Source of the DNA: Halobacteriales archaeon YIM A00010
GTDB taxonomy: Archaea > Halobacteriota > Halobacteria > Halobacteriales > Haloarculaceae
Assembly: GCA_025041175.1 (NCBI GenBank)
Contig: JAKCFJ010000001.1
Location: 2,497,526 to 2,561,525, forward strand
Direction: 5' to 3'
Length of the DNA stretch: 64,000 nucleotides
Positions 22,815 to 48,586 of this stretch are shown piece after piece (position 1 is the first letter of the stretch; the number at the start of each line of letters is the position of its first letter). The notes under the pieces were generated by a model. That model had not been told where the DNA came from and did not search any database. It worked only from the letters and a program-made list of their open reading frames with translations. A program made the translations under genes and the position numbers.

Positions 22815-23115
22815 ATGACATCGATCAGTGCTCGTATTTCCGATGGGGAGGCCGAGACGCTGGAGGAGGTTGCCGCGCTTTTGGATGAGGATCGAAGCAC
22901 GTCGATCCGGCGCGCACTCGCAGAGATTGCACGACTTGCGGGTGCGTGTCGCCGTCGAACGGTACCAATCCGGCGATGTCTCGGTGAATCAGGCGGCCCG
23001 AATCGGGGACGTGAGCCTCGAGGAATGGTTCGAAATCGCCAGCGAACGCAATCTCACCACCCAACTGTCTCCGGACGATCTGGAAACTGATGCCGAAGCT
23101 GCCCGCGATCTATGA
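22815..23115 (+). pseudogene. UPF0175-type antitoxin, frameshifted
   Basis: The first frame reads MTSISARISDGEAETLEEVA and continues to about 22925; the second half is in the +1 frame and reads LRVRVAVERYQSGDVSVN then ARIGDVSLEEWFEIASERNL to the stop. Joined, they match the UPF0175 antitoxin layout: an N-terminal DNA-binding half and a C-terminal VSVNEAA/DVSLAEW-type half. The shift lies between about 22915 and 22935. The stop codon overlaps the start of the PIN gene (ATGA), as in intact toxin-antitoxin pairs. Non-functional as it stands unless recoded. Confidence 0.8.
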
Positions 23116-23920
23116 GGATCTACGTCGGTGCAAGCACGCTCATTGCGCTCGGGACCGTTGGTACCCTCTATCTTTTGTGTGACTTCGATGGTCGGGTCAC
23201 CGTTCTCCCTGCTGTCGCCAGAAGCCTCTGGCTTCTGGCTGCTAACCGAGCTTCGCTCGGTGATGTCGTCGGACTGTGTCCGACTGTCACCGGCCGTAGG
23301 CCGGTTGCCCGAGGAACGGTTGTTCCTCGCTGCTTGAGGCGCGTAGCGCCTCTCTGTCACCGGGCTTTGCCCGGTTGCTTGCGGAGTCCTCGAAAACGCG
23401 TTGCGTTTTCGGGAGCGCGAAAATCGAAGATTTTCGCAGCCTTCGCTCCGCTCTGTCGCCGGGCTACGTCCGGTTGCTTTTCGAGCATCGCTCGACTCTG
23501 TTGTCAAAGAAGTCACGACCGAACCCGCCGAGACGAATCTGGAGCGGTTCATCGAAACGAACGACGCCCGAAGCCGTTTTCCTGCGGCGGAGACCGACTG
23601 TAAACGGGCGCTGTCGTACTGGACGAGTCCGAACGAAACGGCGACGTTCATCTCACAGCGTGCGTCCTCCATCATAGGAGAGGGATGAGTCGGTCGGGAT
23701 CGTCTCCGGCGACCGGCGCGTCCGCACCGTCGCTCGTGGGTTCGGGGCAACGGTCACCGGGACGATCGGGGTGCTCGTTCGTGCTGTCGAGGAAGGATAC
23801 GACGGACAGGACGCCAAAACGCTCCTCCGGCGCATCGACAGCAACGGGCTTCACACGACCGGCGAACTCCGCGAGACGGCGACGCAACTCATCGAGGAGG
23901 CGGCAGAACGAACAAAATAG
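23112..23920 (+). pseudogene. PIN-domain (DUF3368-type VapC-like) toxin, interrupted by a hairpin array and frameshifted
   Basis: N-terminal part: MRIYVGASTLIALGTVG, where the first catalytic aspartate of the PIN active site is glycine (family VDAS). The frame runs to VTVLPAV (23215) and is then broken by 286 nt of hairpin array. It resumes at about 23502 with VKEVTTEPAETNLERF and shifts frame again near 23690 before the C-terminal part DRRVRTVARGFGATVTG to the TAG at 23920. Three lesions (lost acidic residue, insertion, frameshift) make this a dead ribonuclease toxin. Its partner antitoxin just upstream is also broken. Confidence 0.85.
23217..23495. repeat. array of 12 short perfect hairpins
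   Basis: Hairpins at 23217-23239, 23245-23261, 23268-23284, 23289-23305, 23310-23329, 23336-23352, 23359-23375, 23391-23411, 23417-23437, 23381-23451 (interrupted, see findings), 23459-23473 and 23481-23495. Arms are 6-10 bp and nearly all perfect; loops are 3 nt (TCT, TTC, TGT, GTA, TTT, GTT, GAA, TAC, ATC) except one of 4, always closed by C-G. Linkers between hairpins alternate loosely between TGTC-like and TGCT-like. No conserved direct repeat, so not CRISPR. It sits inside the PIN pseudogene. Confidence 0.92.
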
Positions 23921-29511: not shown

Positions 29512-29667
29512 ACCACCACCTTTTTTACGTTCGGGTGGCCGAAGGCCACCCTCACGAAAAAAATCTGGACCAAAAAAAGCCGCTCGCTCCGCTCGCAGTG
29601 GGTGTACTCACCGCCACCGCTCCCGCTCTGCCACCGCAACTGCACGCTACGATTCCTTGTCAGTCGT
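29512..29667 (+). repeat. repeat A: ~155-bp intergenic repeat with terminator-like hairpin
   Basis: Near-identical, in inverted orientation, to 33400-33568. It holds a T-tract (29521-29526), a perfect 8-bp-arm hairpin at 29533-29551 (GGGTGGCC, loop GAA), an A-tract (29557-29563), a second A-tract (29572-29578) and a CGCTCG-rich stretch. The flanking T and A tracts would give poly-U ends on both strands, so it can serve as a bidirectional terminator for tbp and the convergent gene. Its far end overlaps the last codons (TTDKES) of the gene ending at 29647. Confidence 0.85.
29519..29526 (+). terminator. T-tract terminator of tbp
   Basis: Run of six T starting 20 nt after the tbp stop codon, immediately before a stable hairpin. 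Archaeal RNA polymerase terminates at such T-tracts. Confidence 0.55.
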
Positions 29668-30213
29668 CTGAGTAGATCCGTCGGCCTCACCGACGACGTG
29701 TGCCAGCTCGGGGTAGCGCTGCCGTAAGCCAGCGAGATCACCGCGCTGGCGGTACTGGCAGTACGTGACGAGCGTTGCGACCAGACAGGTGGAAGCGTTC
29801 TCAGCATCCGATTTCTCGGTCATGGCGGCTGGCTCGCGCGAATCCTCGGGCGCGAACACGGACTGAACCACGTCGCCATCGCGCTGCTCGTGGACGCGCA
29901 GGCACGCGCCGTTGTCGAACCAGCATTCCACGATCGTCTCGCCTGCGGCGCAGTAACGCGTGAACCGCGCGATTCCGGGGAGTTCGTCGTAACCACCTGC
30001 TCGGGTCCTGCCAAGCCCCGCTGTTGCCAGTATCTGCTCAATCTGCGTAGCGTGTGCGCAACCGGTGGACTGACACGGTCTACACCACAGTCCCTCGCTC
30101 ACGTCAATAATGTGGTACAGTTCGGCTTTCGTCACCGCCGCCCGATCCTCGACGGCCGAGAGGTTCAGCACCTCACCCCGCCGATTCCGGAACTGGAACA
30201 GCGGTAGCGTCAT
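29647..30213 (-). CDS. uncharacterised Cys-containing haloarchaeal protein
   Basis: 188 residues from the ATG giving MTLPLFQFRNRRGEVL; an upstream in-frame start reads through the overlapping small gene. A cysteine cluster WCRPCQSTGCAHA (about 44-56) could bind zinc; it is followed by a globular part with CWFDNGACLRV (about 97-107). The C-terminal 45 residues are polar with YRQRGDLAGLRQRYPEL. Translationally coupled (ATGA) to a 48-residue zinc-ribbon-like protein upstream. Function not recognised. Its last codons lie in repeat A. Confidence 0.7.
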   Translation of the reverse strand: MTLPLFQFRNRRGEVLNLSAVEDRAAVTKAELYHIIDVSEGLWCRPCQSTGCAHATQIEQILATAGLGRTRAGGYDELPGIARFTRYCAAGETIVECWFDNGACLRVHEQRDGDVVQSVFAPEDSREPAAMTEKSDAENASTCLVATLVTYCQYRQRGDLAGLRQRYPELAHVVGEADGSTQTTDKES

Positions 30214-30356
30214 CGCCACCACCGCCCCAACGGGCAGCCGATGCGGTGGTCGAGGCGCGTGCGAACCGGCTGGCCACACACCCGACACCGATGGCGCTGT
30301 TCGGTTTCCTGATACGATGCGACACCGTTACATGCCTCTGATTCGTTCCCTGTCAT
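30210..30356 (-). CDS. small zinc-finger-like protein coupled to the downstream gene
   Basis: 48 residues, MTGNESEACNGVASY at the start and CRVCGQPVRTRLDHRIG then CPLGRWWR at the end. The CxxC...H...C pattern suggests one metal site. The stop TGA overlaps the ATG of the next gene (ATGA), a strong sign that both are real and translated together. No family name is certain. Too short for routine ORF lists. Confidence 0.6.
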   Translation of the reverse strand: MTGNESEACNGVASYQETEQRHRCRVCGQPVRTRLDHRIGCPLGRWWR

Positions 30357-30717
30357 GGGACTCTCTCATCATGGAGAACCCCAGCGTCGGGTGTCTTGAC
30401 CACCCGGCGCGTTCCAATGAACGCGCGGTCGGCACACGCTGGCGTCCTCATCTATCGTTGCCTTCCCCATCACACATAAAGGTACTGATGGAACGGATAA
30501 TGTTATATTATACTAACAACTCATTGTGCCAGCTGTTGCTCGGAGCATAGTAACGAACCACTGAAATCAGGCGTTGCTGCCGGGATTGTACCGGTAGCAG
30601 TGGATTTCTGTCCGGCGATCACGTCAGACAGCGAGACGCCTGAGGTGTCGAACGAGCGAGTCACTCAGACCACCGACCGCGACGAATGACCCGGTCAGAG
30701 CAGGCTGGACACCAGCC
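30357..30717. other. intergenic spacer with a perfect hairpin
   Basis: 361 nt between the zinc-finger-like gene and the 3' end of the coiled-coil operon. It contains a perfect inverted repeat, GCGCGTTC/GAACGCGC around CAAT, near 30408-30427, and an AT-rich stretch near 30501-30520 that could be the promoter of a transcript. No convincing ORF. Confidence 0.45.
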
Positions 30718-38463: not shown

Positions 38464-38531
38464 GGGGTCGCGCAAATCGCGTAGCGATTTGCTGGATACG
38501 GGAAATCGAAGATTTCCCTTGACTTGACCCC
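38464..38531. repeat. double-hairpin unit at the tnpA end of the IS605-type element
   Basis: Hairpin 38472-38492 (arm GCAAATCGC, loop GTA) and hairpin 38500-38518 (arm GGGAAATC, loop GAA), linker TGGATAC, enclosed by GGGGTC/GACCCC (38464-38469, 38526-38531). The arms are identical to those of the unit at 48532-48586, in inverted orientation, while the loops differ. Confidence 0.88.
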
Positions 38532-38552: not shown

Positions 38553-38969
38553 CTACACGTACTCCGTGCGTTCGATATACTGTTCAATCGTCTCGCTTGA
38601 AACCTCATCTGCCGTTCCGATGTAGTACGATCCCTCCCAGAATCCTCCACTCCATAGAAATTCCTCCAAGTACGCTTCGTGTTGCTTCCACATCTCACGG
38701 GCAGTTATGCTCTTGATCGTCCGCACGATCTCGCTCGGCGCATACCTTGGATGTGCCGACACGAACAGGTGTATGTGATCGGGCGAGATATGGAGTGACT
38801 GTATTTCGTATCCGTAATCGTCGCAGACCTCGCGGAAACTTGTTTCCAGAGACTTCTTGATTGAGTCCAGTATTGCATGGCGATACTTTGGACATCGCAA
38901 ATCGGAGATTTGCGAGCAGTAAATCTTCGATTTACGACACCACACGAAGTGATAGTTGACGTTGTACAC
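38553..38969 (-). CDS. tnpA: IS200-type HUH (Y1) transposase TnpA with an in-frame hairpin insert
   Basis: 138 residues; the GTG start is uncertain because the frame stays open upstream. The HUH motif is SPDHIHLFVS (about 63-72) and the catalytic tyrosine lies in EGSYYIGT (about 113-120). The enzyme cuts and rejoins single-stranded DNA at hairpin-marked ends. Between NYHFVWC and CPKYRHAIL, where relatives read VWCPKYR, there are 15 extra residues encoded by a 45-nt double-hairpin unit (38892-38936). The insert keeps the frame, so the protein may be active. Confidence 0.9.
   Translation of the reverse strand: MYNVNYHFVWCRKSKIYCSQISDLRCPKYRHAILDSIKKSLETSFREVCDDYGYEIQSLHISPDHIHLFVSAHPRYAPSEIVRTIKSITAREMWKQHEAYLEEFLWSGGFWEGSYYIGTADEVSSETIEQYIERTEYV
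38892..38936. repeat. 45-nt double-hairpin insert within tnpA
   Basis: Hairpin 38896-38914 (arm CGCAAATC, loop GGA) and hairpin 38919-38935 (arm GTAAATC, loop TTC) with linker AGCA. In the tnpA sense the insert is flanked by TGT on both sides. Removing it restores the usual VWCPKYR reading. Confidence 0.88.
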
Positions 38970-39049: not shown

Positions 39050-39205
39050 ATGGGGGAGTACTTTGAGATCGACGGTCAGGAAGTGATCGTCCGAGAGGTC
39101 AAACCCTTCGGGAACAGTGCTCACGTTACTGTTCCCAAACGCTGGCGCGGTGCGGACGTGAAAGTCGTCCGCACCTCACCCCCCGATCCGCAGGACGACC
39201 CATGA
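39050..39205 (+). CDS. DUF2080 transposon-associated protein
   Basis: 51 residues, start MGEYFEIDGQEVIVREVKP, then GNSAHVTVPKRWRGADVKVV. The AbrB-like small protein regularly precedes tnpB in haloarchaeal IS605-family elements. Its stop overlaps the tnpB ATG (ATGA). Possibly a DNA-binding regulator of the element; role unproven. The 50-residue counterpart at 47126 shares the REVKPFG and PKRW.GADVKVVR blocks. Confidence 0.85.
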   Translation: MGEYFEIDGQEVIVREVKPFGNSAHVTVPKRWRGADVKVVRTSPPDPQDDP

Positions 39206-40407
39206 CCGACACAGTAGAACTCACAAAGACGCTTGTCTTTCAGCTTGATATTCAGAGTGACAATGTTGAACTGCTTGAGGAGGCGCGTCTGGAGTGTCGC
39301 CGTGTGTTTAACGAAGTGCTTCGTCTTGACCGCGAAGGCTGGGACTGGGACGATATCGATGACACCGTGACACAGAACGCCGACCTGGTGAACAATACAG
39401 CCCAGCGGATCATCAACAAGGCTTTTGACGCTATCCAAGCCTACTACGACAACGACGATTGGGGACGACCATGGTACAAACACGAATCGTTCCCACTCCG
39501 TATGAACTACGGTGAAGGCTATAACCTCTTTCTCGAAGACGACGAGTCGGTACGGTTTCGCCTCTCCGCGAAACCGTACAAACATGTCAAAGGCGAACTT
39601 CGTGGGAGTCCCGACCAGCACGAGTTGCTCGAACGAGCGATGGAGTCGGATGAGTGGCGGGTCGGAACAGCTGAAGCGCTCGTTCGCAATGGGGGAAACG
39701 AACTTCACGTCACCATCACCCACGAGTCCGCCGAAGTGCGGGAGAAATCCACCGCCGAAACGGTCGTCGGTGTCGATATCAACGAGGACTGTATCGCATT
39801 AGCGGCACTGACCGAATCAGGGATTGAGGACTCTATTGTCATCGACTTTCCCGAGATCAAAGCCCAGCGCCATCGGTATTTCACACGGCGCAAACGGATG
39901 CAACAGGCCGATCAAACGGCGTTCAATGAGCTGTTCCGAACTAAGGAACAGCGGTTCGTGCACGATCAGCTCCACAAGGTTTCCCGGCTTGTAGTGAGGT
40001 GGATACAGCGGTTCGAGCGTCCCATTGTCGTCTTTGAAGACCTCAAAGACATGCGAGACGACATCGAGTACGGGACGCGGATGAACCGCCGCCTCCACTG
40101 CCTGCCATTTGCCCACCTTCGGAAATTCATCACATACAAAGCGGCGTGGTGTGGGATTCCAACCGACGACGTTGATCCAGCGTACACGTCCCAACGGTGT
40201 ACGCGGACGTCATGCGAACACACCGAACGTGCAAACCGGAACAGGAAACGGTTCAAATGCTGTGCGTGTGGTCGCCAAGATCACTCTGATCGTGGCGCTG
40301 GAATCAGCGTGGCGAAAAACTGGTTGTATCGTTCCAACAGAAATGTGCCTGCTCTCAACACGCTCCCACAAGTGCGCAAGTGGAAGCTGCGATGTTCACA
40401 AGAGTGA
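39202..40407 (+). CDS. tnpB: TnpB RNA-guided nuclease, IS605 family
   Basis: 401 residues. N-terminal helical REC/WED region, RuvC I VVGVDINED (about 191-199, catalytic Asp), RuvC II VVFEDLKDM (about 275-283, Glu), zinc finger CTRTSC...CCACG (about 332-357) and RuvC III SDRGAG with the last Asp (about 362). All three catalytic acids are present. Family members are programmable nucleases that keep the transposon at its site, guided by an omega RNA from the right end. Its stop codon lies inside a hairpin (40398-40416), so the C-terminus was probably reshaped by a hairpin unit. Confidence 0.93.
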   Translation: MTDTVELTKTLVFQLDIQSDNVELLEEARLECRRVFNEVLRLDREGWDWDDIDDTVTQNADLVNNTAQRIINKAFDAIQAYYDNDDWGRPWYKHESFPLRMNYGEGYNLFLEDDESVRFRLSAKPYKHVKGELRGSPDQHELLERAMESDEWRVGTAEALVRNGGNELHVTITHESAEVREKSTAETVVGVDINEDCIALAALTESGIEDSIVIDFPEIKAQRHRYFTRRKRMQQADQTAFNELFRTKEQRFVHDQLHKVSRLVVRWIQRFERPIVVFEDLKDMRDDIEYGTRMNRRLHCLPFAHLRKFITYKAAWCGIPTDDVDPAYTSQRCTRTSCEHTERANRNRKRFKCCACGRQDHSDRGAGISVAKNWLYRSNRNVPALNTLPQVRKWKLRCSQE

Positions 40408-40682
40408 AGCTCTTGTACAGCCCGCAAAGTCGCGTAGCGACTTTGAGACGGCAGGGATCGGGGCCGGTGGACGGCCCGACCGTGACCCAAACCACCGCGA
40501 GAGGTCATCATACCGACGGTGGCGCGGGAGTGCTTGAATAATCCACGGGAAGACTGCGAAAAGCTTCGCTTTTCGCGTTGCCAAGGAGCTTCACTCCTTG
40601 AGCATCCCGGGGTCGTCCGAGACGGCTTCGCCGTCTCGTGATGACGAGAGACCTTCGGTCTCTCGAACCACTTAACCCCGGG
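40398..40682. repeat. hairpin-rich right end of the IS605-type element (possible omega-RNA region)
   Basis: Six hairpins: 40398-40416 (arm ACAAGAG), 40425-40445 (CAAAGTCGC, loop GTA), 40556-40576 (GCGAAAAGC, TTC), 40582-40600 (CAAGGAG), 40618-40638 (CGAGACGGC, TTC) and 40645-40665 (CGAGAGACC, TTC). They fall into three pairs, i.e. three double-hairpin units. The outer pair CCCGGGGT/ACCCCGGG encloses the last two. TnpB omega RNAs come from this position in known elements. Confidence 0.85.
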
Positions 40683-47626: not shown

Positions 47627-47684
47627 CACCAGAAGCCGTCGGCTTCTGGTTGGCAGCCAGAAATCGCAGATTTCTGGCGACGGC
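47627..47684. repeat. 58-nt double-hairpin insert in tnpB
   Basis: Hairpin 47629-47649 (arm CCAGAAGCC, loop GTC), linker TTGGCAG, hairpin 47657-47677 (arm CCAGAAATC, loop GCA). The first arm is identical to that of the first hairpin in the PIN-gene array (23218-23238). The insert shifts the tnpB frame by one. Confidence 0.9.
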
Positions 47685-48531: not shown

Positions 48532-48586
48532 AAGGGAAATCGTAGATTTCCCGTATCCAGCAAATCGCTCCGCGATTTGCGCGACC
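48532..48586. repeat. 55-nt double-hairpin insert in the tnpB 3' end
   Basis: Hairpin 48534-48552 (arm GGGAAATC, loop GTA), linker GTATCCA, hairpin 48560-48580 (arm GCAAATCGC, loop TCC). Same arms and linker as 38464-38531 in inverted orientation, different loops. Confidence 0.9.

Follow-up and report, generated by a model that had tools for sequence, protein, structure and literature searches.

In the genome of Halobacteriales archaeon YIM A00010, a gene for a PIN-domain toxin is interrupted by a closely packed array of short DNA hairpins, which raises the question of what such an array is and how it came to lie within a gene. The locus was analyzed within a stretch of 64,000 nucleotides (contig JAKCFJ010000001.1, positions 2,497,526 to 2,561,525, forward strand), here called the window. 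The best explanation, which taken as a whole we consider probable, is that a dispersed insertion element, each unit of which is a pair of DNA mini-hairpins, has been repeated in tandem to form the array. The source genome appears to belong in or near the genus Halocatena, judged by the closest named relatives of its phosphoenolpyruvate carboxylase (PEPC; 81% to H. pleomorpha).

Twelve C-NNN-G hairpins are present at positions 23217-23495 of the window. As a first-pass annotation of this DNA had described them, the arms of the perfect hairpins measure 6-10 bp, the loops are of 3 nt except for one of 4 nt, and a C-G pair closes all 12. Pairing is perfect in 10 hairpins, in keeping with the annotation's "nearly all perfect", whereas the 12 perfect hairpins of its title were a slight overstatement, since one hairpin contains two G-T pairs and another is split. 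The array is 286 nt long, one over a multiple of three, because one loop has an extra base. Folded as single-stranded DNA, the region gave -95.9 kcal/mol compared to -53.3 +/- 4.1 kcal/mol for 200 dinucleotide shuffles (z = -10.3), and the window contained eight clusters of at least two such hairpins compared to none in three first-order Markov shuffles, indicating that the hairpins are far above chance. The linkers alternate between TGTC and TGCY, as had been noted, and mark out two-hairpin units; the array comprises about six of them plus a nested insert of a second subfamily. A composite resembling the nested element was found at loci L003, L007, L031 and L032, and GCGGAGC-NNN-GCTCCGC units, split in the array, were found unsplit elsewhere.

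The array splits the PIN gene between VLPAV and VKEVTTEP, a reading of the annotation that the orthologue in the congener G002 bears out: the window's gene reads ...VLPAV, array, VKEVTTEP, compared to ...ALPTVVDEVTSEP in G002. Two congeners carry an uninterrupted gene, so the same array is not conserved in all relatives. This empty site was judged by reading orthologues, not by joining the flanks of the toxin gene. The gene in the window is now a pseudogene. Further frameshifts in it and in the antitoxin gene show that the locus is decaying, so there is no need for the array to be coding.

The unit is not confined to this locus. When the array was searched by blastn against its own genome, 75 stretches on several contigs matched, the array among them. 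When a cluster was defined as at least two perfect C-NNN-G hairpins spaced at most 9 nt apart, 64 clusters were found in 2.4 of the 2.86 Mb of the main contig (C1), compared to none in three first-order Markov shuffles, and most of them (50 of 64) consist of exactly two hairpins. The catalogue also includes single loci on other replicons. The most frequent order is TGTC-[hairpin A]-TGCY-[hairpin B]-TGTC; on the coding-compatible strand the unit reads AG-hairpin-GCA-hairpin-GAC. YGTC stands before the first hairpin in most units. Units defined by their tags are 45, 51 or 57 nt long in 47 of 54 cases, all multiples of three, and tandem arrays are head-to-tail runs of units, often with exact 45-nt periods.

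Among 32 units, 10 of the 14 base pairs were changed on both sides; the 100% pairing of this set is uninformative because the units were picked for perfect hairpins. An unbiased sample was provided by hairpin B located by the tags alone, which was perfect in 40 of 46 cases, with eight mismatches in total (3 G-T, 2 A-C and 3 other). These counts show that the hairpins are maintained through compensatory changes. The hairpin CGAGGMRC-NNN-GYKCCTCG occurred 836 times in 292 Halobacteria genomes, whereas the reversed form closed by G-NNN-C, an equally perfect hairpin, occurred six times. Loops of the GNA type on the GACA strand were found in 42 of 77 and 30 of 47 first hairpins (A), compared to 31 of 195 isolated hairpins; C-GNA-G is an exceptionally stable DNA mini-hairpin. 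The annotation had held that only the structure recurs and that the element spreads by fold and not by sequence. The fold does recur and is tightly kept through compensatory changes, but sequence recurs as well, in the tags, the closing pairs, the arm consensus and the 75 blastn stretches; in the tags and the arm consensus it is the sequence that is copied.

Many units lie within conserved genes of the source genome, encoding PEPC, an enolase-superfamily epimerase, a GH3 glycosidase, an acyl-CoA synthetase, an Fe-ADH-like protein, a CCA-adding enzyme, CofC and a MaoC-like protein; two further genes carrying units are, as we presume from recognition of their sequences, those of PurL and PEP synthase (pps). 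The PEPC insert adds about 50 residues that none of 80 haloarchaeal orthologues has, and the alignment with the E. coli PEPC structure 1FIY falls into two stretches that adjoin exactly at the insert. The epimerase site is empty in three congeners (G002, G003 and G005), the purL site in four relatives, the site in a TANGO2/NRDE-like gene in four relatives (one with an apparent decayed hairpin of its own), that in an FAD oxidoreductase gene in three and the pps site in one. These comparisons show that the units entered older genes, each at a single point; the insertions are read as recent. The mobility proposed in the first-pass annotation is thus supported both by the empty orthologous sites in the relatives read and by near-identical 45-nt units in unrelated genes. 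As a separate observation, the PEPC genes of Natrialbaceae (L082, L089, L092 and L109) carry one hairpin, CGAGGAGC-CAC-GCTCCTCG or a close variant of it, located at the same loop as the Halocatena array.

All the in-gene units (about 14 loci, among 30 class-wide loci) have a common orientation and frame, beginning with a GAC Asp codon (in a few, Asn or Gly), continuing AGC GAG and ending with GAC. The predicted peptides are hydrophilic and rich in Ser, Asp, Glu and Arg, as in D-SEEQRSSGNRTQSG-D and D-SEERSSSGSRTQSG-D, and the in-gene units, which mostly keep the frame, would add about 15 such residues each. In the usual frame the loop of hairpin B never yields a stop codon and hairpin A yields one only with the loop NTA. 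The GTA loop was found in 0 of 17 in-gene hairpins A compared to 5 of 15 others (Fisher p = 0.015, classified by coding potential), and its shortage in genes probably reflects a coding constraint. Calls of coding potential on all 64 clusters were noisy where the flanks were short, and for this reason the reading of orthologues was preferred. A few units of the source genome use other frames (CofC, Fe-ADH-like), and some break the host frame (TnpB, window 47628). Similar peptides occur in annotated enzymes and other proteins, namely PpsA of Haloterrigena salifodinae, aconitase of Halobacterium sp. DL1, a Halolamina phosphatase-family protein, CobN of Natronococcus occultus and a Natrinema membrane protein. 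A tblastn search of plasmids with a 35-residue peptide gave no match, perhaps owing to the low complexity of the query; the DNA search did find cases.

The family extends well beyond one genus. A model of the unit (R1) matched 102 of 116 related genomes, the source genome included, with 55 matches here, 52 in G053 and 43 in G063; these counts are lower bounds, few candidates having been scored per genome. The hairpin CGAGGMRC-NNN-GYKCCTCG was present in 219 of the 292 Halobacteria genomes and absent from all of roughly 310 genomes belonging to the phylum's other classes, so the family spans the class Halobacteria. This range, and the mostly frame-neutral coding insertion of the units, had been overlooked when the array was first read. 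Viral contigs searched with a 21-nt core of the unit gave no match, nor did phage records.

Units at different loci can be nearly identical: those of the epimerase and PEPC genes share 47 of 48 positions and those of the epimerase and pps genes 44 of 48. At one orthologous locus there is one unit here and there are two in G005, and a loop reads aaa in one and ttt in the other, as if the hairpin had been flipped. Units are therefore clearly copied between loci and multiply head to tail, and the self-expansion suggested by the annotation finds support in this one-to-two difference and in the exact 45-nt steps within arrays.

Several known systems resemble the archaeal units in part. REPINs consist of inverted GTAG-tagged partners and have a cognate RAYT; like them, the archaeal units are paired short hairpins spread by copying, but no linked Y1 transposase gene was seen and no correlation with such genes was found over 292 genomes. 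Fungal mitochondrial double-hairpin elements are dispersed pairs of adjacent hairpins whose structure is kept while the sequence varies; the likeness, drawn from description, lies in the adjacent pair, and the difference in their mitochondrial location. The PATEs and small mobile repeats of Haloquadratum are transposase-free; PATEs, which are palindromic, integrate next to a short target word, do not duplicate the target and include a 52-bp terminal-only form (PMC3119063). The units described here are likewise haloarchaeal and transposase-free, but PATEs are tied to IS605 ends, whereas these units showed no Y1 tie and often lie in frame in enzyme genes. Their target is GAC or RAC and the element ends in GAC, and the 3-10 bp repeats fit insertion with or without target duplication.

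The closest parallels are bacterial. Rickettsia palindromic elements (RPEs) are short palindromic DNAs found in frame in many unrelated protein genes across a bacterial genus (PMC10969869, PMC3733652). The haloarchaeal insertions are similarly palindromic, absent from orthologues and in frame in otherwise intact genes; on the other hand, RPEs are described as about 150 bp long, whereas the archaeal units are of 45-57 nt with two triloop hairpins and occur in tandem. The likeness is one of kind. CGTC-tagged repetitive extragenic palindromes (REPs), which include RPE-4, RPE-6 and dRS3, carry a tetranucleotide tag at the hairpin foot, form dimers, have no known dedicated transposase and, when clustered inside genes, code for 43-82 residues (PMC3733652). 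Most archaeal units also have a tetranucleotide tag (YGTC) at the foot of the stem. The CGTC stems differ in that they enclose loops of 4-5 nt, mostly end in CCA tails and fall into four sequence families, whereas the archaeal units have 3-nt loops closed by C-G, a right tail of TGTC or TGCY, a head-to-tail arrangement and arms that vary by covariation. We read the family, by these structural parallels, as an archaeal counterpart of RPEs and CGTC-tagged REPs, that is, as in-frame palindromic insertions. The open literature yielded descriptions of RPEs, CGTC REPs, PATEs and RepRanger (whose species table has no haloarchaeon), not of the present family.

How the units are copied can be considered in the light of these systems. 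Whole units would be copied from existing units into GAC or GAY-AG sites by way of a single-stranded, hairpin-forming intermediate. Of the routes weighed we judge the most likely, though at somewhat less than an even chance, to be purely host-driven copying, in which replication template switching or gene conversion by host enzymes would start at the GAC(AG) sequence within the GACAG(CGAGG) shared by unit and target, and the hairpins would trigger the switch and correct their own mismatches. It would agree with the lack of a transposase link, the 3-10 bp common to targets and element end, the gain of a whole unit with a reverse-complement loop at the orthologous locus, the mosaics common to several loci and the rarity of mismatches, among which G-T and A-C occur about equally often (3 and 2), counts that are very small. 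Such copying alone leaves the constant C-G closing pair, the GNA loops and the strict triloops unexplained. The main alternative is a structure-recognizing enzyme acting in trans. The units would then be non-autonomous PATE- or REP-like elements, moved by a Y1 (HUH) transposase of the IS200/IS605 type that reads the hairpins and the GACA/TGTC tag in single-stranded form. The tag at the hairpin foot and insertion beside a short fixed sequence recall IS200/IS605 and REP elements, the GNA bias is strand-specific, haloarchaeal PATEs are IS605-derived with a 52-bp terminal-only form in one family (PMC3119063), the source genome has four Y1_Tnp matches (one within the window), and Y1 genes are also present in G003 and G005, the congeners richest in units. 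However, the number of one hairpin type did not correlate with that of Y1 genes over the 292 genomes (rho -0.07, p 0.25), 90 Y1-free genomes carry as many copies (mean 3.0 compared to 2.8, some with 10-18), and at nine Y1 loci inspected no TGTC/TGCY unit was seen as an element end, although other two-hairpin modules lie near TnpA and TnpB genes. The involvement of an HUH enzyme envisaged in the first-pass annotation is not supported by this co-occurrence, and we regard the Y1 route as rather doubtful.

Selection for a product of the units seems less likely than either route. If they were functional RNAs or terminators, kept for mRNA processing, termination or stability, a conserved structure with compensatory changes would be expected; yet units lie within enzyme reading frames that need translation through them, most insertion sites differ between relatives and none of 4227 Rfam families scored above its gathering threshold in the window, which makes this explanation very improbable. 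Hardly more probable is that the inserted peptides are selected as acidic, flexible linkers helpful to proteins at high salt. The Ser/Asp/Glu/Arg-rich composition and the independent hydrophilic inserts at the PEPC site in Natrialbaceae would suit it, but the same DNA is also found in intergenic regions, transposase genes and pseudogenes, and the strictly conserved property is base pairing, not the peptide. In our main reading the element probably persists as near-neutral selfish DNA, because it is almost free of stops in the usual frame and its length is mostly divisible by three.

Some observations weigh against a dispersed element spread by copying and carried in frame. Units with a 9-bp arm are 49, 53 or 55 nt long and violate the rule of three, and the insert peptide is known from reading the DNA only, its translation being predicted. 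G110 (L353) and G018 (L354), from two families, carry the same in-frame insert in one gene, at an identical site; a few sites are occupied in this way, and therefore not all insertions are young, some being old or moved with the gene. The pps unit (C1:2178732-2178771) reads GATA in all three linkers where its sisters read GACA, GGCA and GACA, and simple copying does not account for this concerted change. No movement event was caught between strains of one species, and we infer the copying machinery only.

What would be new in these archaeal insertion elements is their range, their unit and their frame discipline. Judged by the open literature, no family of in-frame palindromic gene insertions would have been described outside bacteria before this one, which concerns a whole archaeal class and not one genus. 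By inserting its units, the family would naturally supply new protein loops to central enzymes such as PEPC, PurL and the CCA-adding enzyme, and it offers an explanation for the odd Ser/Asp-rich repeats of haloarchaeal proteins, which matters for annotation and structure prediction. The copy number, empty sites and exact units make transposase-free palindrome spread testable in a tractable group (Haloferax and relatives). A wider reading, which we put forward as possible only, is that these elements form a class of archaeal selfish DNA recognized by its fold (pairs of C-GNA-G mini-hairpins) and nearly invisible to protein genes. Because of a length divisible by three, an almost stop-free Asp frame and landing at Asp codons, it could have spread through the proteomes of the whole class, seeding repeats such as those of histidine-kinase N-boxes.

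In haloarchaeal histidine-kinase-like proteins (L358, 1490-1640, and L361) the N-box motif VEHGST is repeated with the same 45-nt unit (SVEHGSTSSRTQSDD repeats), and the native VEHGS coding sequence folds into a CGTGGAGC-ATG-GCTCCACG hairpin. It is possible that this native sequence was the birthplace of the element.

The features of the PIN locus and two other units of the window are listed below.

Table 1. Hairpin array, host locus and further two-hairpin units in the window
Feature	Position	Strand	Remarks
Antitoxin gene, upstream of PIN gene	22815..23115	+	frameshifted
PIN-domain toxin gene, decayed, array-interrupted	23112..23920	+	additional frameshift downstream; approximate end; G001 and G002 have orthologues
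TGTC tag, left boundary	23213..23216	+	GTC is a codon of the PIN gene
Inserted array	23217..23502	+	286 nt; TGTC/TGCY tags on + strand; uninterrupted orthologues in two congeners
Hairpin 1	23217..23239	+	10-bp arms, loop TCT
Hairpin 2	23245..23261	+	7-bp arms, loop TTC
Hairpin 3	23268..23284	+	7-bp arms, loop TGT
Hairpin 4	23289..23305	+	7-bp arms, loop GTA
Hairpin 5	23310..23329	+	8-bp arms, 4-nt loop GGTT; 3-nt loop in sister copies elsewhere in genome
Hairpin 6	23336..23352	+	7-bp arms, loop GTA
Hairpin 7	23359..23375	+	7-bp arms, loop TTT
Outer hairpin, split by nested insert	23381..23451	+	GCGGAG 23381-23386 / CTTCGCTCCGC 23441-23451
Nested two-hairpin element, another subfamily	23387..23440	+	54 nt; hairpins 23391-23411 and 23417-23437
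Imperfect hairpin	23458..23474	+	7-bp arms, two G-T pairs, loop TAC
Last hairpin	23481..23495	+	6-bp arms, loop ATC
GTC codon abutting right end of insertion	23503..23505	+	matches second Val of VV in G002 orthologue
Two-hairpin unit, GACA-hp-GCA-hp-GACA (hp, hairpin)	38895..38938		in frame inside TnpA gene (judged from protein)
Two-hairpin unit, 10-bp arms	47628..47678		inside TnpB gene, frame broken near there

The window also contains an IS605-type element (38553-38969 and 39202-40407) with divergent TnpA (Y1) and TnpB genes, the former carrying an in-frame two-hairpin unit. A second two-hairpin family (GCAAATCGC / GGGAAATC, linker tggatac) is found at window positions 38472-38518 and 48534-48580 and at C1:611978, 1165269 and 1873741, near IS605/TnpB genes and with GGGGTC...GACCCC flanks in some copies. 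More families, with the linkers tcatca, tgatga, ggagcc, caagtgagt and agatgc, occur at window positions 40556-40665 and at C1:1218502, 2025775 and 2326329, apparently mostly in intergenic regions. Finally, a segment of roughly 1-1.5 kb is present in about 25 copies, at window positions 29554-30542 and at places on C1 (the matches of L051), and often adjoins hairpin arrays.
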